From a virus: 51,174 nucleotides of DNA. A program made the translations under genes and the position numbers. How positions within the stretch are numbered: the stretch's first letter is position 1; every line of letters begins with the position of its first letter. Shown here in pieces: positions 1,586 through 51,174 of this stretch. The notes beneath the pieces are model-generated. The model did no database searches. It had not been told where the DNA came from and was given only the letters and a program-made list of their open reading frames with translations. The stretch is from positions 1 through 51,174 of the IMG/VR virus record IMGVR_UViG_3300050132_000130; one strand, given 5' to 3'.

Positions 1586-1819
1586 TTACCCTGCCGTTGA
1601 CGGGACGCACGAATAATTAACCGTAAACGTCGCGGCCACAACACTAACCGCCGACGTGATGTTGAAGCCCGTTGTTGTCGCCACGGAACTGCCGATACCG
1701 AAGTTCGTGGAGCCGCCGTTTTCATTCCCTTGGCAAACGTAGGTTGTAGGCGTTGCCGTCCAAGCTGAGGCTATCGAAGCCCCAATCTTCCCATAGCCCT
1801 GTGGTTGCGTGTCGGTCAT
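1586..1819 (-). CDS. Small protein following the S74 fibre gene
   Basis: 77 residues, rich in Thr, Ser, Ala and Gly with two cysteines, beginning MTDTQPQGYGKIG. The ATG overlaps the fibre stop codon (ATGA), so it is coupled to that gene and is the last member of the leftward operon. The composition resembles a beta-rich virion surface protein. Family not recognised; a fibre accessory or cap is a guess from position. Confidence 0.6.
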   Translation of the reverse strand: MTDTQPQGYGKIGASIASAWTATPTTYVCQGNENGGSTNFGIGSSVATTTGFNITSAVSVVAATFTVNYSCVPSTAG

Positions 1820-4800
1820 CTACGCCCCGTGAAAAGCCACTTTATCCTGCTCAAAAACGTGTCGTGAATTGGCACGGCATTTTGTTCATCTTCTAAACCC
1901 TGTATTTCTGTTTGCTCGTCTTGCAAAGCCTTCACCAAAACCGCCGTAAGCTGCATATACCGCACACCCGCAACAGAACCGTCGGGATGCAATCCGATTA
2001 AGCGCGGGTCAATATCGCCAACTTCTTCCGCGATAAGGCCAACCTGTCTACCAAGATGTTCAGGGTTAAATTCAGGCTTCAAGTCATATGACACCGGACG
2101 CATTGCTAGAACTTCGGACAATCCATCGTCAAGGTTCTCGATGTTCATTTTTACTTTCAACGTGGACGAGAGACAGGCTAGCGTCGTGTCAACATTTACA
2201 AGCCCCGTTGAGGTCGTCCAACAAAGAGTGCCCGTCGTGGCTGCGCTTGACGATGCCAGACCCGGCAAGTTCAAAGCCCCATAAAGTGTCGTTGCGGTCG
2301 TCGTCCCACTCAACCCTATTTCCGTGGTGTTGCTGCCAAGACCCACACCACCGATTGCGATTGAACCTGTGTCCCCTGCGGCATTCGTCGTCGTCGTTGC
2401 GCTTGTGCCGATTAGGATATTGTTGGAGCCTGTGTTTAGCGTTGTACTCGCCACCCCTGTGCCGATAACAGTGTTAGAAGATCCCGACCAAGATGCTGTT
2501 GAGCATGAGCCCCGCCCGACACAAGTATTACTCGCGGCTGCACCAGTTATGCCGCTTAAAGCGGTTCTTCCTAACGCGGTATTGCCACTGCCAGTTAACT
2601 GTGCCCCATTAAAAGTCCCAGAATTAGCACCGAAAAAAGTATTTGTACTGCCAGAACTAATCGCCGCCCCGGCTCCTTGCCCGACACATGTATCTTCCGC
2701 GCCAGAGGTAACATTCTTACATGCGGCATTACCAAATGCAGTATCCGTTATCGCCGCTGATGTCATAGTGGCAGACAAAGCATTGTACCCGAAGGCCGTA
2801 GCGTTATAGGCTGCTTTTGCACTCATCCCAGATAGTGCCGACGAGCCTGCTGCAACACTTGCGCCGAAAGTGGTGTCATAGGGTGAGAATAATACAGCGG
2901 GTTGTCCTGCGATATTATATCCGTATTGAGTATTTTGATACCCCGTCTTCGTTGTACTGTATTGCCCTATATAGGGCAAAAGCACTGGCGTGATCGCTGC
3001 CGCAAAGTCCTCGTATCCCACCATATTGGGGTGAACATTATCGCCCGCACTTTCACCTAAAGTAACCATTTGACTATAGGACACAAGCCGAGCCCACTCA
3101 TCTACAATAGGCAACCCGGACACATTGGCTGAATTGTTGTTTGCTGCCGCGAGAGAATACATAGCAGAAATAATAGCTGCCTGTACGGCTTGTGATGCCG
3201 ACCCTATGGCTGACGGTGCAGGAGTAAGGATAATAACATCTGCATTTGCAGAATTTTCCGCAGCCGTAATCAGGGTTTGCATATTTGTCGTGTACGCAGA
3301 CGGAGTAATTCCGTTTAGCCAATCATTTATCCCGAGATCAAACACAAACGCGCTGCACCCAAGAGAGTTATTTTTTATAATAGAAACTGCGTCCCATCCA
3401 GCCGTTCCGTTAGTGGCTGACCAATCACCAGATTTAGAACCCGACCACCCAAGATTAACCATGTGCACGGAACTTTTAGTACTATCATATGTTGAAAAAC
3501 CTATGATGAACACGCTACCTGAAACCCAATTAAGATTTACGGTGTTGGCACCAAGAGAACCCGTGATTGTAACAGACCCTATACCTGACGTTCCTGCTGT
3601 GGCCTGCGAAGTGTTCGAACCGCCGTTTAGATTATAATTAAATGAACCGAGGCCGCTATCAATTCTGTAATACACAATAAACGTATCCACGGGGGTAGGA
3701 GCCGTGTACGCCAAGCTTGCTGTAGTAGATGTTGCTGTAAACATGGCTCCGCCTATTGTGGCTTGCGGAGATAGCGTTTCAGACCACCCAGAACCGACCG
3801 TCAGAACATTTGTAAAGCCGCTATGTTTTGTTCCCGGTCCGTCGCCTATGAAATTATTGACATCTGCCATAACGCCTGCATTTCTAAATGCCTGCATAAC
3901 TTGTCCGGGCATACTGTTATAGTAAATTGGAGACGTTGATCCTTGTCCGGTTGTCGTGCTGTCGCCAATCCAGCAAATATTCGTGTTACCAGTTCCCGTA
4001 GGGTTAGCAAGCACGCTATTTACAGCCGCTTTGAGGTGTGGGAGTGACAACGCGTAATTTGTGGTGATGTTGTTTATAGCTCCCGATCCACTCGTCGCCC
4101 CCGTCCCCCCGTTCGCCAAGGGGAGTGTGCCGGTGACGCCAGTGGTCAGGGGCAATCCGGTCAAATTTGTCGCCACGCCAGAGTTCGGCGTACCAAGTAG
4201 CGGCGTCGTCATCGAGCATGATGTAGTCAGACATACCGAGCCGCTACCCGACGAACCTGTCCATGTTGGAGCGGTTGCCGCGCTGCCGCTTCCTGTGCTG
4301 GACAAGAATTTCGGGGTTGTCGTCGTGTTTCCTGCAAGCCGCGTAGGTGCGCCGGATGCTGCGCCGTACACCATGTCGCCGAGCGTCGTCGCCACGGTTT
4401 CGTAAAATGATGTGAAGGCGTTCGCAACCGATGTTTGACCAGTGCCGCCGTTTGCCCCAACGAGCGTACCCGCAAGCGTTATCGCGCCGGACGTAGCCGA
4501 ATTTGGAGTAAGGCCAGTCGTCCCGCCGTTAAATGTCGTGACGCCAGTTGAAGCCGTGAGATACGCCGCTCCATTGCTGAGTTGATTATTATTCGTGATC
4601 GGCGTCACGGTGCAATTGATGATCGTGCCGTTCGTCAAGCACCAATCGCCGTTCGTTAACGTGTTGGCGTGAAGCTCCGTTACGTTCAACGTAAGACTGC
4701 CCGCCGTGTTGGTAGCGTCCCCCGTGTGCGCTGGCTCCTGCGCGGCTTGTAGGGTGCCGCTGGCATAACTTGAAAGATTGATTGCCGTTCCGTTCCATGT

Positions 4801-5361
4801 TCCCGCCGTGATCGTGCCGACCGTCGCAATGTCGGTGCCGACAAGTTTCGACGCGGCAATGCTGCCCGCGAGCATGGCATTCGTGACGACACCGGACGCG
4901 ATGGCAGTTGCATTCCCGACACTCGTCACATTGCCGGTCAAATTGGCATTTGTTATGACCGTCGCCGCATTCCCGACCGATGTCACGCCGCCAGTTAGAT
5001 TTGCGTTCGTCGTCACTGTGGCCGCGTTTCCGCTGATGCTGCCTGTGATCGTGTTTGAAAATGTATCGTTGCCACCAAAGGTCAGGTTACCATTGAGCAA
5101 GCCGAGGACGGCTCCCGACGTCCCGGTCTGCAACGAAGTTCCCCACGCGCTGCCTGTCGATACTGCCACGCCTGCGCCCGGATAAATCTGCACGAACGGC
5201 GCGCCGCCATCACCAACCTGATCTTTGGCCGTCCATGTTGCGTAATGCCCCGGGGTGACGCTACCGACTTGCTGGACACCGGATGATGTTGGGGTGCCTG
5301 CAAATGCTGCGGAAATTATCGCGGCGAAAGATATGGCAATAACGAGAAGTTCTTTTTTCAT
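1816..5361 (-). CDS. Tail fibre with signal peptide, SGNH hydrolase domain and S74 chaperone
   Basis: 1181 residues. Residues 1-21 (MKKELLVIAISFAAIISAAFA) form a textbook Sec signal peptide with an AFA cleavage site, unusual for a virion protein. Residues 20-130 resemble fibre shafts with repeated TNANLTG.VTSVGNA units. An SGNH/GDSL hydrolase domain follows: block I GDS at 466-468, LGIND in the middle and the DNVH pair D774/H777, so it could cut host surface glycans or esters. Residues about 860-1040 carry YadA-like head repeats (NTAFG, NTALG, NTVIG). The C-terminal 116 residues match peptidase S74 intramolecular chaperones (LSSTLKVKMNIENL, GLIAEEV, YMQLTAVLVKAL), with likely self-cleavage at Ser1065/1066. 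It lies far from the baseplate genes, in the helicase/methyltransferase operon. Confidence 0.85.
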   Translation of the reverse strand: MKKELLVIAISFAAIISAAFAGTPTSSGVQQVGSVTPGHYATWTAKDQVGDGGAPFVQIYPGAGVAVSTGSAWGTSLQTGTSGAVLGLLNGNLTFGGNDTFSNTITGSISGNAATVTTNANLTGGVTSVGNAATVITNANLTGNVTSVGNATAIASGVVTNAMLAGSIAASKLVGTDIATVGTITAGTWNGTAINLSSYASGTLQAAQEPAHTGDATNTAGSLTLNVTELHANTLTNGDWCLTNGTIINCTVTPITNNNQLSNGAAYLTASTGVTTFNGGTTGLTPNSATSGAITLAGTLVGANGGTGQTSVANAFTSFYETVATTLGDMVYGAASGAPTRLAGNTTTTPKFLSSTGSGSAATAPTWTGSSGSGSVCLTTSCSMTTPLLGTPNSGVATNLTGLPLTTGVTGTLPLANGGTGATSGSGAINNITTNYALSLPHLKAAVNSVLANPTGTGNTNICWIGDSTTTGQGSTSPIYYNSMPGQVMQAFRNAGVMADVNNFIGDGPGTKHSGFTNVLTVGSGWSETLSPQATIGGAMFTATSTTASLAYTAPTPVDTFIVYYRIDSGLGSFNYNLNGGSNTSQATAGTSGIGSVTITGSLGANTVNLNWVSGSVFIIGFSTYDSTKSSVHMVNLGWSGSKSGDWSATNGTAGWDAVSIIKNNSLGCSAFVFDLGINDWLNGITPSAYTTNMQTLITAAENSANADVIILTPAPSAIGSASQAVQAAIISAMYSLAAANNNSANVSGLPIVDEWARLVSYSQMVTLGESAGDNVHPNMVGYEDFAAAITPVLLPYIGQYSTTKTGYQNTQYGYNIAGQPAVLFSPYDTTFGASVAAGSSALSGMSAKAAYNATAFGYNALSATMTSAAITDTAFGNAACKNVTSGAEDTCVGQGAGAAISSGSTNTFFGANSGTFNGAQLTGSGNTALGRTALSGITGAAASNTCVGRGSCSTASWSGSSNTVIGTGVASTTLNTGSNNILIGTSATTTTNAAGDTGSIAIGGVGLGSNTTEIGLSGTTTATTLYGALNLPGLASSSAATTGTLCWTTSTGLVNVDTTLACLSSTLKVKMNIENLDDGLSEVLAMRPVSYDLKPEFNPEHLGRQVGLIAEEVGDIDPRLIGLHPDGSVAGVRYMQLTAVLVKALQDEQTEIQGLEDEQNAVPIHDTFLSRIKWLFTGRR

Positions 5362-5775
5362 TTAATTCAACTCCCAAACGCCGACGATCGACGTTACAAT
5401 CCATTGTGTTGCCGATATTAACGTGACTGTAACAAAATTTCCAACAGTGTTCGATGAAATAGAGCCGCCGGACGAGGATGAGTCGGCGCCGTTCGTGATT
5501 GTTACTCCGGGTGGCGCGACAAGAGACAGTGTTTCAGCGGCGACAACCAAAGCAGAGATTGCCACTGGATAAAACGTCGAGGGCGCGGCAGGCAGTGTGA
5601 GATCAACTTCCGCTATCGCACCTGTGTTGGTAAACATAGTTCCGCTCTGGGTAAGAGATAACCCCGCCGATGCTGTCAGCGGCACTACGCCAGAGAATGG
5701 CAACCCAGACGCCCCCTGCGGGCCGCCTGATGCAACAACAAATGTGACTGAATTTCCGATGCCTGAAAAACTCAT
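5362..5775 (-). CDS. Putative virion surface/fibre-associated protein
   Basis: 137 residues from the ATG at 5775, which overlaps the upstream stop as ATGA; longer in-frame starts lie inside the upstream gene. Gly/Ser/Thr/Val-rich beta-type sequence (SGIGNSVTFVVASGGPQG, VDLTLPAAPSTFYPV) typical of tail tip or fibre decorations. The stop codon directly abuts the start of the large fibre gene. Role inferred from composition and position. Confidence 0.6.
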   Translation of the reverse strand: MSFSGIGNSVTFVVASGGPQGASGLPFSGVVPLTASAGLSLTQSGTMFTNTGAIAEVDLTLPAAPSTFYPVAISALVVAAETLSLVAPPGVTITNGADSSSSGGSISSNTVGNFVTVTLISATQWIVTSIVGVWELN

Positions 5776-6155
5776 GGAACCACCGTGATGGGTTTTGTTA
5801 TTGTGATTGCACCCGTTATGTATTGGTTTTCGACAGGTGGAGATGTCTGGTATTCGATCCAAACATCGTATGGATATGTGCCGATTGACATGCCTGCTGT
5901 GGTTGTGCTGCTGATATTGATAGAGAACTGTCCGGCGGGTGCATCAGTCACCGTAATGCCGCCGTTTCCAGTTGAGAGCAGCAACGGCGTTGGTGTGGCA
6001 ATCGTCATTTTAATCGAACATCCGGTTAAATTCACCGGAGTCGAGTTAATCGCCATCGTCAACGCCAAAGAAACGTCGTCACCCTGCACGAATGCGGCAT
6101 TTAACTGCTGTGCCCCTGCCGAGCCTGTGACTGAAACTTGGAGCATGAATACCAC
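5772..6155 (-). CDS. Putative baseplate/receptor-module protein (BppU-like fold)
   Basis: 127 residues; an alternative start nine bases downstream (MLQVSV) is equally plausible because neither has a clear ribosome-binding site. Segments such as FVQGDDVSLALTMAINSTPV, GCSIKMTIAT and YPYDVWIEYQ resemble small immunoglobulin-like domains found in baseplate upper proteins. It opens the fibre cluster after the VRR-NUC gene. Structural assignment is an inference. Confidence 0.55.
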   Translation of the reverse strand: MVFMLQVSVTGSAGAQQLNAAFVQGDDVSLALTMAINSTPVNLTGCSIKMTIATPTPLLLSTGNGGITVTDAPAGQFSINISSTTTAGMSIGTYPYDVWIEYQTSPPVENQYITGAITITKPITVVP

Positions 6156-14401: not shown

Positions 14402-15319
14402 TTAGAAGTTGTCGATGTAGCCGACGCAGGAAACATTGTTTGTACTTGCCCCGCTAGTTGAATAAGTTGCGTATATGTTGGTTGACTCCAACAGAATAGA
14501 ACACGGTATATTTAAGGCTGGTGAACCACCGCTAACTTCAACCAGATTGTTTGAGCTGTTTGAACCGACAGTAAGATTAGATGTTCCGGAAGATGGATCA
14601 TTATAGACCGTAACATTTATCATGGCCGCCGTCGGCGGGACAGCAGAACTAACTGAAACAGTATTTGTTGCTGCAGGTGCTTGGCTTATTAGGACAACTG
14701 GCGTCCCGGTATATTGAGTATTCCGGCCAGCCTGCACGAATCCATAAAGATATTTCGTGGACGCAGATGTATAAACAGTCCCAATCCTCGCAAAATAAGT
14801 GTACCCACTTGGCATCGTCGGTGCAGTAGCAGACAATGACATCAGGATGGACGTTCCAGACGTCCCGTAAATTGCAAAAACATTGTACCATGTTGATGCT
14901 GCGAGCGTTCCTGTATCGAGTCCACCCGCGCCGGATAGAGCCGTATTCAGCGTTTTACTGTATGCCGTCAACAGAAACGGCAGACCAGAACCGTTCCCCA
15001 ACATAACAGCATCAGCCGTCCATGTCGCCGTTGTATTCGATACCCAAACGCCTTTCAAATTCTTAAATCCACCCTGAGCCGGTGCCGAAAACAATCCCTG
15101 CAACGCCGTCAAAACCTGATTATGCGTCGTCTTACTCGGCGCAACCGATGCCGCCGTCAAAATCGAAATCAGTTCTTCCTGAATATCGTTGCACCAATCG
15201 TTATCAACGATCGTCGGCGTTCCTGATCCGGGCGTCGCGTTGGAGAAATACCCAGCGGTGCCAGCCGATGCTGGTGTTGGCAATGATGCGGCGGCGGTTA
15301 CGTTGTCAATTCTGTGCAT
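14402..15319 (-). CDS. Tail fibre/collar protein
   Basis: 305 residues. The N-terminus MHRIDNVTAAASLPTP, then TIVDNDWCNDIQEELISIL and LTALQGLF, is the common attachment region of baseplate-linked tail fibres. The rest is Ser/Thr/Gly-rich beta structure with a C-terminal domain that may bind receptor. It follows the DUF2313 gene, as expected in Mu/P2-type tails, and is separate from the large S74 fibre elsewhere in the genome. Confidence 0.75.
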   Translation of the reverse strand: MHRIDNVTAAASLPTPASAGTAGYFSNATPGSGTPTIVDNDWCNDIQEELISILTAASVAPSKTTHNQVLTALQGLFSAPAQGGFKNLKGVWVSNTTATWTADAVMLGNGSGLPFLLTAYSKTLNTALSGAGGLDTGTLAASTWYNVFAIYGTSGTSILMSLSATAPTMPSGYTYFARIGTVYTSASTKYLYGFVQAGRNTQYTGTPVVLISQAPAATNTVSVSSAVPPTAAMINVTVYNDPSSGTSNLTVGSNSSNNLVEVSGGSPALNIPCSILLESTNIYATYSTSGASTNNVSCVGYIDNF

Positions 15320-15354: not shown

Positions 15355-15960
15355 TTAAGTCGCAAACATTGGATAGCTGTGCGCGGGAGCGTACTGGTGA
15401 ATCACATATTCGAGTTCCGACGTGCCAATCAGCGTGAACAGCGCGTCATTTGCAGCCGAGAAATTCGTCTCAAAATACTGGACGCTGAGATTCGGAATCG
15501 TCACCGTCCAGCCGAACGCCCACGCTTGTCCGTATAAAATCCCGTTTGCCACCCCTACGTTCGCGCAAAACGGCGTATATTCCGTGATCGTCGCGCCCGT
15601 AAACCCCAAGGATTCGATAACCGACAGGAAATATGGCACCGACTGGCCGCCGTCGTTGGCGAATTTCTGTAAAACCTGCGCCTGCCGTTGCGGAATCGTC
15701 TGGACACCCGCGAACGGATTCGGCAAGCCGAGCGTCGCCTCCCATTCGGGGAGCAACTGCACAGGGTTTGACGGGAACGCATCGGCCAATAAATCCTGCA
15801 ATGATTGAGTTTGCCGTTCATACGTCGGCGCGAGACAGGCGATCGTTTGCGCGATAACCGAGTCCACATCACGCGGCCAGACCTTACCCGTTGGCATCAG
15901 CGAGAGGTATGCTGCGGTGAAATCAGCGGTGGAGAATAGGGGGGCTAGGGCTTGGGTCAT
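15355..15960 (-). CDS. Baseplate protein gp48 / DUF2313 (tail protein I-like)
   Basis: 201 residues. Family pattern: YLSLMPTGKVWPRD, a coiled QTQSLQDLLADAFPSNPVQLLPEWEATLGLP, RQAQVLQKFANDGGQS and ITEYTPF. Mu gp48-like proteins join the baseplate wedge and the tail fibre. Its ATG overlaps the homing endonuclease stop (ATGA), so the mobile gene now provides its translational coupling. Confidence 0.85.
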   Translation of the reverse strand: MTQALAPLFSTADFTAAYLSLMPTGKVWPRDVDSVIAQTIACLAPTYERQTQSLQDLLADAFPSNPVQLLPEWEATLGLPNPFAGVQTIPQRQAQVLQKFANDGGQSVPYFLSVIESLGFTGATITEYTPFCANVGVANGILYGQAWAFGWTVTIPNLSVQYFETNFSAANDALFTLIGTSELEYVIHQYAPAHSYPMFAT

Positions 15961-16709
15961 TTCCAGATTTTCCCGCTTCGGATAGACTTGACCGTTCCCT
16001 CACAAATACCGTATTCGGCTGCGATGATTCGTTTCTTTCTTTTATCAAGGCGAATGGCGTCAGCCTGAAGTCTGGTAAGTTTTGCCATTGGGTGCCCTTC
16101 CCCGCGCAGGTGCTGCCTAGAAATGACCCAACCTGCTTTTTGCTCAGGAGTCATCGGTTTCTGTGGTTTTCCGCGATGAGCAGCAGCTATTTTTTCCTTT
16201 GTTTCAGCAGAATGTGGTTGGTTCTTTCTCCCCAACAAAGACTGACGAATTTTCTCTCTTTGTTCTGGTGACTTTGGACTTGGCTTCCCCATATTTCCCA
16301 GAGATATTTTTCTCCTATGTTCTTCAGTAAGGGGGCGGCGCTTCTTGCCTTTCTGTGCAGCAGATATTTTCGCACGGTGTTCGGGGGAAAGTGTATTTCC
16401 AGGAGTTCCCTCGCCACCTTCTGTTGCGTTCACAACCTGAGAGCCATTCTTTGATCGCAACAACTTGATCCAAAACCTTTCTCTTTCTGCCCAATTATCT
16501 CCTGCCGTCTCCAAGAGGTACATCTTCGGCTTCATGCCGGAAGAAAGAAGGCTCCTAATCCATTTACCACGATAAGACATATCTCCGCGCTTAGCGTCAC
16601 GCACATGGATATACAAACGATTGGCCATCGGTCGTATCGTTTTACCAACATACCTACCCCTAGAAGTTCTGGGATCGATAAGAACATAGATCATTGTTGT
16701 CACGCCCAT
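15957..16709 (-). CDS. GIY-YIG homing endonuclease with NUMOD repeats
   Basis: 250 residues. GIY-YIG nuclease: MIY (6-8), YVG (20-22), Arg31, His35, acidic ETAGDNWAERERFW (67-80) and Asn94. Next come tandem NUMOD3-type DNA-binding repeats (LSPEHRAKISAAQKGKK, LTEEHRRKISLGNMGK, KSPEQREKIRQSLLGRK) and a C-terminal helix-turn-helix (ITAEYGICEGTVKSIRSGKIWK-like, with K for T). It is free-standing between two baseplate genes and overlaps both. No intron boundary is visible, as both neighbours are complete. Confidence 0.9.
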   Translation of the reverse strand: MGVTTMIYVLIDPRTSRGRYVGKTIRPMANRLYIHVRDAKRGDMSYRGKWIRSLLSSGMKPKMYLLETAGDNWAERERFWIKLLRSKNGSQVVNATEGGEGTPGNTLSPEHRAKISAAQKGKKRRPLTEEHRRKISLGNMGKPSPKSPEQREKIRQSLLGRKNQPHSAETKEKIAAAHRGKPQKPMTPEQKAGWVISRQHLRGEGHPMAKLTRLQADAIRLDKRKKRIIAAEYGICEGTVKSIRSGKIWK

Positions 16710-39324: not shown

Positions 39325-39810
39325 ATGGCGTGTAATACATTGAACGGTATATATAATTTCGTTCCCACACCTGTATTCATGCTGTGATCGGCGGGAAAGT
39401 AAGGGGTTTTTCGGGAAGCCGCATATCCCATCCACCAGTGCGCCGAACTATAAACCGCACCCCAGTGACGCCCACCCCGTTTAAACGAGCCACGCCTCAA
39501 CCTGCACAGGATAAACGGCGGCAGAACAAACACGTGAGGTCGGGGATGGTTTCAAAATTAGTTTCAGTCAGATTTTACGCGCGCCCGAAATGCCCGTGTA
39601 CGTTGCAGACCTCTGGGAGGACCCTAAGTCTTTGATATATATAGACATTCCTTGTGTGGTATCCCGATACCATTACTCAACTCATTGATATATAATATAT
39701 TACATTATTGTATATTATATATCATTATCAATATGTTATGTATTATGTTAAATGAAATAACATATAGTATATTCAACCACTTAAGTATTATGTTAAATGA
39801 ACAAGACAAG
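39325..39810. other. Non-coding AT-rich segment with short repeats
   Basis: I find no convincing gene here. It holds a 17-bp direct repeat (39740-39756 and 39785-39801, GTATTATGTTAAATGAA), an inverted repeat TGGTAT/ATACCA at 39658-39673, and TTTGATATATA copies near 39262 and 39631 with a reverse copy near 39227. Stretches at 39190-39242 and 39680-39780 are nearly all A/T and would unwind easily. Confidence 0.6.
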
Positions 39811-40758: not shown

Positions 40759-40799
40759 ATCAAGAGAACAAAACAACCCGCAAACAAACGGAGTCTAAA

Positions 40800-40997
40800 A
40801 TGAAAACAGCACAAGCAACAATTACTAAGGACATGACACTAGGTCAGGCCGTTGCAGCTATCCAATATGCGTGGCCTGCTACAAGATGCCGTATTTCTTA
40901 CCCCGAAAATAATGTTGTTACAATCGAGGAAAACGAAAAAGGAATACAGCGTTGCGATATTGGATTTACGATAGCTTGCCTTTACCGCCAATCCTAA
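40800..40997 (+). CDS. Small early protein, first gene of the right rightward operon
   Basis: 65 residues with the leader GGAGTCTAAA. ATITKDMTLGQAVAAIQYAW then CRISYPENNVVTIEENEKG. No known family. Small proteins at this position often modify host functions. Confidence 0.6.
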   Translation: MKTAQATITKDMTLGQAVAAIQYAWPATRCRISYPENNVVTIEENEKGIQRCDIGFTIACLYRQS

Positions 40998-41017
40998 CAA
41001 ACCAATAGGAGTCTAAA

Positions 41018-41200
41018 ATGAAAAAACAACCACAAACAATCACAACTCTATTCATGGGCTATCAGGCTAATCTTGCAACATGCCACACAAGCCTAGAGCG
41101 TCAATTGTCGCGCGTGATAACCGGAAAAGAGATTCGCGCGCTTGCCATAAAGAAGGGCATGTTGACGAGTCGCGAGTCTGCTATCGTCGCGCAATTTTAA
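41018..41200 (+). CDS. Small early protein
   Basis: 60 residues, leader AGGAGTCTAAA. Basic helical protein with SLERQLSRVITGKEIRALAI and two cysteine-free halves; ends SRESAIVAQF. Family not recognised. Confidence 0.55.
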   Translation: MKKQPQTITTLFMGYQANLATCHTSLERQLSRVITGKEIRALAIKKGMLTSRESAIVAQF

Positions 41201-41224
41201 TCCCTCATACAAAAGGAGTCTAAA

Positions 41225-41515
41225 ATGTATGAATTAAAAATAATCGCCGCGCCCGTATCATCCTACAAGGTGGAATCGAACGGCGAGTCGATAACCATGA
41301 TAAGCCAAGCATGGAATAGCCCTGCATTGCTGCATCAAGTCCGGCATGTAAAAAACCTACAGGAAGGGATTCATGTTGTGCAAGCCTGTTTTAATCAGGT
41401 TAGGCAGGATCACCCCGAAACCGAATTTAGTTTTTCGACTCGTGCTATCGGGCGTAAACCTAACGGATTCGACAAAGTGAGAGTCCAGCTGAATCCTAGC
41501 TACACTAACGTTTAA
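41225..41515 (+). CDS. Small early protein
   Basis: 96 residues, leader AGGAGTCTAAA. ELKIIAAPVSSYKVESNGES, SPALLHQVRHVKNLQEGIH and HVVQACFNQVRQDHPETE; mixed alpha/beta with a basic tail (RKPNGFDKVRVQL). Family not recognised. Confidence 0.6.
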   Translation: MYELKIIAAPVSSYKVESNGESITMISQAWNSPALLHQVRHVKNLQEGIHVVQACFNQVRQDHPETEFSFSTRAIGRKPNGFDKVRVQLNPSYTNV

Positions 41516-50690: not shown

Positions 50691-51174
50691 TTTTTCTTAC
50701 CCCATATATGACTATGGAGGTCTTGGCTTTCTTGCTTAGTAAGGGGCTTCTTTTTTGTTGCCGCTTCCGCACGCCAGATAGCGCGTTGGCGGTCATGCCC
50801 CCAGCCTCTATCGCTTGCAATGCGCCGAAGCGTGTTGATGCTCATATCGTATTTCTCGACAAGCTGCGCGTTCTTGATTGAGCCATCAACCCATTCGGCT
50901 TTGGTAAATGCCTTTGCACGTTCTTCGACAGCGGCTTTCTTTGCCGCGCCGCCCCGTTCGCCGCCAATTTTTGCCGACCCTTTGCGCCTCGCATCCTTCC
51001 ACCATTTGACCAGATTTTCTATGTTGCTAGGGACAATCCAAAAGTTTCCGTCCTCTTGGCTTACAAGCTTCGCCTTGCTCTTTCTAGCCAGAGCAAGAAA
51101 ATCTCGGAAATGTTTTTCATCTTCCGCGATAACCCCAAGACTTACTACATGCAAAGCATCACGACACTTGCGGG
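50687..51174 (-). CDS. Degenerate serine-recombinase-like protein, C-terminal part (continues from base 263)
   Basis: This is the rest of the 207-residue gene whose start is at base 263; the last 127 bases of the window duplicate its 5' portion. After a resolvase-like helix (RDFLALARKSKAKLVSQEDG) come KWWKDARRKGSAKIGGERGG, typical of the arm before resolvase DNA-binding domains, and a helix-turn-helix (NAQLVEKYDMSINTLRRIAS, then RGWGHDRQ). The active-site serine is missing, so it is more likely a DNA-binding regulator than an invertase. Overlaps the methyltransferase start (ATGA). Confidence 0.8.
   Translation of the reverse strand, partial: RKCRDALHVVSLGVIAEDEKHFRDFLALARKSKAKLVSQEDGNFWIVPSNIENLVKWWKDARRKGSAKIGGERGGAAKKAAVEERAKAFTKAEWVDGSIKNAQLVEKYDMSINTLRRIASDRGWGHDRQRAIWRAEAATKKKPLTKQESQDLHSHIWGKKK
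51048..51174. repeat. Right copy of terminal direct repeat (circular join)
   Basis: Identical to bases 1-127; merge the two copies when closing the circle. Confidence 0.95.

Follow-up and report, generated by a model that had tools for sequence, protein, structure and literature searches.

The window analysed here, i.e. the whole stretch of 51,174 nt, begins and ends with an identical 127-bp direct terminal repeat (positions 1–127 and 51048–51174) and therefore appears to be a complete genome (about 51 kb). Its gene set (terminase, portal, capsid, sheath, and baseplate genes) is that of a contractile-tail phage. The tail module contains a conventional, leaderless tail-fibre gene on the minus strand (14402–15319), which matches phrog_1833 and other families and has weak matches, below threshold, to DUF5023 and to the second domain of Mtd. 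A DGR was ruled out because the window contains no reverse transcriptase gene. A homing-endonuclease-like gene (phrog_314) is located at 15957–16709, between the baseplate J gene and the downstream tail genes. Short direct repeats were found at 39712–39801 and 40782–41250; the core of one repeat family, GGAGTCTAAAATG, is present at three places.

Outside the tail module, downstream of genes for a helicase and a methyltransferase (both named from their sequences) and a VRR_NUC nuclease, lies a fibre-like gene with Pfam matches, whose product, P0001, is a predicted exported protein of 1181 aa. The gene occupies positions 1816–5361, as originally reported together with the protein length, and is encoded by the minus strand (5361→1816), a point absent from the original prediction. 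Its ATG abuts the stop codon of the upstream gene and is located 9 nt beyond a Shine–Dalgarno-like GGGAG sequence (5375–5371). The first in-frame ATG after this start corresponds to residue 163; given this and the plausible ribosome-binding site before the ATG, a wrong start codon was ruled out. The gene directly abutting it upstream (5362–5775, minus strand) encodes a leaderless protein of 137 aa with no Pfam match, and leaderless partners occupy the same position in the relatives described below. The following gene (5772–6155, minus strand) encodes a phrog_1084 protein of 127 aa that matches BppU_N, a baseplate-adaptor N-terminal domain, below threshold. At the other end, a 77-aa ORF with no family match in Pfam or PHROGs overlaps the end of the P0001 gene (1586–1819, minus strand). 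Operon promoter and terminator signals were not in excess of those in shuffled sequences. The nearest relatives found for the window are viral contigs and MAG contigs labelled Burkholderiales, Acidobacteriia, and Telmatospirillum. A first scan for relatives of P0001 over its full length yielded one partial match only, and the records reached via TerL and the sheath protein contained no P0001 relative.

The N-terminus of P0001 consists of MKKELLVIAISFAAIISAAFA followed by GTPTSS. Residues 1–21 (5299–5361, minus strand) form a predicted Sec/SPase I signal peptide with a positive n-region, a hydrophobic core, and small residues at −3 and −1, and the predicted cleavage site is located between AFA and G. 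Leaders were called throughout by our own Sec/SPase I rule, not by SignalP. The rule gave P0001 a score of 4.93, a value reached in 0.07% of trials when its first 40 residues were shuffled, and no window among 1081 taken from within the protein passed the rule; neither a twin arginine nor a lipobox was found in the sequence. The clean signal peptide ending in AFA, on which the original prediction was built, was thus confirmed, and the leader is very probably functional. P0001 is the only large ORF product of the window with a convincing leader. Chance occurrence of the leader was ruled out by the shuffles together with the class evidence given below, and because P0001 has no close full-length homolog, the argument for export of this particular protein draws on its leader and its class. 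The alternative at this point is a hydrophobic N-terminus that does not work as a signal peptide, in which case P0001 would be an ordinary tail fibre assembled in the cytoplasm. This would be compatible with a leader prediction that is rule-based only and with the domains of P0001, since virion fibres often contain S74 or SGNH domains; the relatives and cysteine contents described below make it very improbable.

An SGNH hydrolase domain is located at residues about 461–790 (2992–3981, minus strand; PF13472, 1.8e-9). Blocks I (GDS), III (GxND), and V (DxxH) are all represented, with S468 in GDS, N679 in GIND, and D774 and H777 in DNVHPN. The Pfam Lipase_GDSL_2 match (38.7 bits against a cut-off of 32.9) is limited to residues 635–784 because about 165 residues, a large insert between blocks I and II, separate block I from the remainder. 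The motifs and the above-threshold profile match agree with the earlier claim that S468, D774, and H777 are intact, and esterase chemistry of P0001 is likely. A single-sequence structure model of this part (mean pLDDT, 38.7) was too poor for use.

The C-terminal region contains an S74 intramolecular chaperone domain (1867–2166, minus strand; PF13884, 5.4e-8; Pfam Peptidase_S74, 33.5 bits against a cut-off of 22). Its dyad, Ser1066/Lys1071, is invariant across 12 aligned sequences. A structure model of the domain has a mean pLDDT of 67, with most blocks past residue 50 above 75, and its fold is that of the intramolecular chaperones: the best Foldseek match (E 1.5e-5) is 7dc3 (MyRF ICA), and 3gud, 3gw6, and 4uw8 (T5) are matched as well. 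The S74 domain is thus intact, as had been noted, and P0001 resembles other S74 fibres and spikes, such as the T5 L-shaped tail fibre and proteins with endosialidase-type chaperones, in having S74 at the C-terminus and a Ser/Lys dyad spaced by five. The interval between the SGNH and S74 domains contains 'NTAFGYNAL...' repeats (residues about 850–1010; 2332–2814, minus strand) with a weak match to the tail-spike family phrog_4636. Just before the S74 cleavage site is a cysteine pair, C1047 and C1063 (2173–2223, minus strand), which is as invariant in the 12 aligned sequences as the catalytic Ser and Lys and is not found in ordinary S74 fibres.

Sampled S74 phage fibres differ from P0001 in that nearly all lack both a leader and this cysteine pair. 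In an unselected sample of 56 dereplicated full-length phage S74 proteins, picked by S74 sequence pattern only, one has a leader, whereas the nearest S74 relatives of P0001 among uncultivated phages nearly all possess a leader and the invariant cysteine pair. Among proteins drawn from 50 loci chosen by similarity to the S74 region of the window, 11 have both leader and pair, 30 have neither, and one each has the leader only or the pair only (Fisher p 2e-8, a somewhat generous value because the rows include near-identical contigs). If P0001 were an ordinary cytoplasmically assembled fibre, this association would have no ready explanation in a reducing cytoplasm.

A second link to other phage proteins is provided by a motif, VQQxGxVTPGHxAxW, located close behind the predicted cleavage site. 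In P0001, the mature N-terminal motif is GVQQVGSVTPGHYATWTAKDQVGDGG (residues 28–53; 5203–5280, minus strand), and it is common to leader-bearing and leaderless phage proteins. An HMM of the motif matches the window with E 3.6e-13, the window sequence being part of the seed alignment. A pattern scan of viral contigs detected the motif both in leaderless proteins, in which the start Met just precedes it, and in proteins with Sec-type leaders, in which the leader just precedes it. The mature N-terminus generated by the predicted cleavage thus aligns with the natural N-terminus of leaderless paralogs, and the recurrence of predicted cleavage sites just ahead of the same mature N-terminus is a further argument against a non-functional hydrophobic N-terminus. 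Several contigs of 60–68 kb carry leaderless and leader-bearing motif proteins in tandem, and some contigs carry two or three leader-bearing genes in succession. In contig L230 (3554–9529), leaderless and leader-bearing fibre-like genes alternate upstream of a portal gene, and near-identical proteins of four loci (L021, L028, L055, and L057) contain the motif twice in succession behind the leader. The motif contigs are derived from phages, as several contain capsid, portal, sheath, and connector genes and others contain endolysin genes nearby; the genes for exported proteins in these relatives reside within structural, late, or lysis modules. The 137-aa partner of P0001 in the window does not contain the motif. 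The consensus N-terminus had no match in cultured phages or plasmids, and the N-terminal profile detected nothing in 289 genomes of one class, in a search that included no positive control. Searches of Pfam, PHROGs, and NCBIfam revealed no known virion-docking N-terminal domain in P0001, whose N-terminus is the leader.

Cysteines of disulfide-bonded periplasmic proteins are usually paired, and the parity of cysteine counts was therefore compared between leader-bearing and leaderless proteins. The set comprised 294 ORFs of >=200 aa, dereplicated at 40% identity, from loci that had been selected via fibre-type proteins. Many of these proteins bear a leader, and among the longest ORFs, some may represent wrong frames. 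By the rule, 43 of the 294 ORFs have a leader, and 42 of these contain any mature cysteine. The mature count is even in 41 of the 42, and in all 41 of those with at least two cysteines, whereas even counts were found in 101 of 183 leaderless ORFs with at least two (binomial p 1e-11). An earlier hand-picked set, which overlaps the 294-ORF set, gave 22 of 23 even counts. Because the leader rule ignores cysteine counts, parity independently supports export, cleavage, and the formation of disulfides, and it too is left without a ready explanation if the leaders do not work and the proteins stay in a reducing cytoplasm. Seven related or neighbouring proteins have a leader whose own cysteine count is odd, and their mature counts are even without exception. 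This result, together with the alignment of mature N-termini with those of leaderless paralogs, argues against the suggestion in the original prediction that the leader is retained as an attachment tip. P0001 has 12 mature cysteines and none in the leader, and its cleavage is thus inferred from the class.

These results suggest that phages of one class export fibre-type proteins from the cytoplasm. P0001 is, as judged from its sequence, a member of this exported S74/fibre class, and no description of the class, or of leader-bearing phage fibres, was found in the literature searched. Export of P0001 is highly probable on these sequence statistics, and removal of the leader is very likely, as is disulfide bonding of the mature protein. 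The original reading can therefore be followed in part: export is strongly supported at the class level by leaders and cysteine parity, whereas the retained tip is disfavoured and the designation 'virion fibre' was an assumption that is not established, given the location of the gene away from the tail module and the presence of another fibre gene at 14402–15319.

Leader-bearing fibre-type proteins are also encoded by two cultured phages. The C-terminal domain of a leader-bearing relative (L062) recurs in gp19 of BcepC6B and gp35 of PBR31, both of which have a leader, and also in the phiKMV/T7-type fibres of PPWS1, KpV74, Peat1, and Kp2, which differ in being leaderless and in having another N-terminal region. 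Like P0001, gp19 and gp35 combine a signal peptide on a fibre-type protein with an even number of mature cysteines, and a normal fibre or spike gene, leaderless and located immediately upstream, is present besides. Unlike P0001, they are short (357 and 269 aa, respectively) and have a different C-terminal domain, and no S74 or SGNH part was recognised in them. No remark on their leaders was found in the literature searched. Virion proteomics of Bcep22-like phages (JC1 and BcepIL02) was considered as a source of evidence and dropped; the fibres of BcepIL02 are leaderless.

P0001 is very probably directed by its Sec signal peptide across the inner membrane, trimmed by signal peptidase I, and folded outside the cytoplasm with disulfide bonds. 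As judged from its families, it would form trimers, the S74 domain would cleave itself off after Ser1066, and the SGNH domain would remove acetyl or similar ester groups from envelope or surface polysaccharide. Because the tail module of the window already provides a conventional fibre, encoded separately, the exported fibre would be an additional one. It may be held in the periplasm and freed at lysis as an enzyme, most likely modifying or masking the receptor polysaccharide and thereby preventing the loss of progeny to debris or already infected cells. The term 'periplasm' assumes a diderm host here. That P0001 acts off the virion has about an even chance of being correct, and the same holds for our best reading as a whole, a periplasmic, lysis-released esterase fibre. 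The additional, off-virion role is favoured because further fibre-type genes, without leaders, are present in the window, contig G671, BcepC6B, and PBR31.

The sequence fits a fibre loaded onto virions from the periplasm as well as a free protein. In the former case, P0001 would be exported, cleaved, disulfide-bonded, and self-trimmed and would attach to virions once lysis has mixed the compartments, possibly via a leaderless partner with the same motif, as present in the relatives, or via a BppU_N-like adaptor. The tandem arrangement of leaderless and leader-bearing proteins with a common motif and the late-module location of the exported fibres among capsid, portal, sheath, and lysis genes in relatives make this a serious rival, and the phrog_1084/BppU_N-like protein upstream of P0001 and the few other fibre candidates seen in a 63-kb relative (G676) point in the same direction. 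However, the leaderless fibre or spike genes of the four phages and contigs named above speak against it, as do the position of the P0001 gene outside the tail module and the 137-aa partner without the shared motif. In addition, the BppU_N match is below the Pfam cut-off, and phrog_1084, the candidate for a shared adaptor, was not found in 24 relatives, in a search that matched no control genome either. We know of no precedent for fibres loaded onto virions from the periplasm, and this route is possible for P0001 but somewhat doubtful. The corresponding statement for the class, namely that tailed phages of this group mature some receptor-binding fibres in the periplasm in disulfide-bonded form and fit them at lysis, so that tail assembly ends outside the cytoplasm, is put forward only tentatively.

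P0001 could also act at the cell surface or in lysogenic conversion; in that case it would be exported in the lysogenic state or early in infection, would alter surface polysaccharide, and would exclude other phages. The combination of an SGNH esterase domain with a leader and a gene location that follows helicase, methyltransferase, and nuclease genes instead of tail genes would fit such a role, but the genes of relatives reside in late structural or lysis modules, neither a lipobox nor an outer-membrane anchor was seen in P0001, and the promoter signal is not above chance. This possibility is accordingly unlikely.

The favoured role, a lysis-released fibre acting off the virion, has a functional counterpart among exported receptor blockers of phages, such as T5 Llp, a small lipoprotein: the proposed role is alike in that progeny would be kept off receptors in debris, whereas P0001 is an enzyme-bearing fibre without a lipobox. 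Assembly of tailed phages is regarded as cytoplasmic, and in one study, the lack of signal peptides on variable (DGR) phage proteins was taken as support for their phage origin (PMC6199706). Should whole fibres be exported by phages, virions could be completed outside the cytoplasm or, alternatively, free fibre-enzymes would be released at lysis; either outcome, if true, would change the annotation of receptor-binding genes. The cysteine-parity test offers a cheap search for exported fibre-type proteins in any sequence collection, and the question of fibre export is testable because BcepC6B and PBR31, two cultured phages, have leader-bearing fibre-type proteins.

PBR31 also encodes gp40, a published SGNH esterase that has a signal peptide (PMC10975493). 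This protein resembles P0001 in family, in being a phage esterase, and in its signal peptide, but it has 215 aa and belongs to the lysis block, and no fibre or S74 parts are described for it (PMC10975493). As for the S74 domain, a profile search over 398 genomes of one phylum gave matches in eight genomes, and the readable ones are of a different kind, including one with a prepilin-like N-terminus. Proteins from bacterial genomes, in L275 and L018 (1357–2781), have S74 at the C-terminus; the type IV prepilin-like N-terminus of the one in L275 represents another exported setting for this domain.
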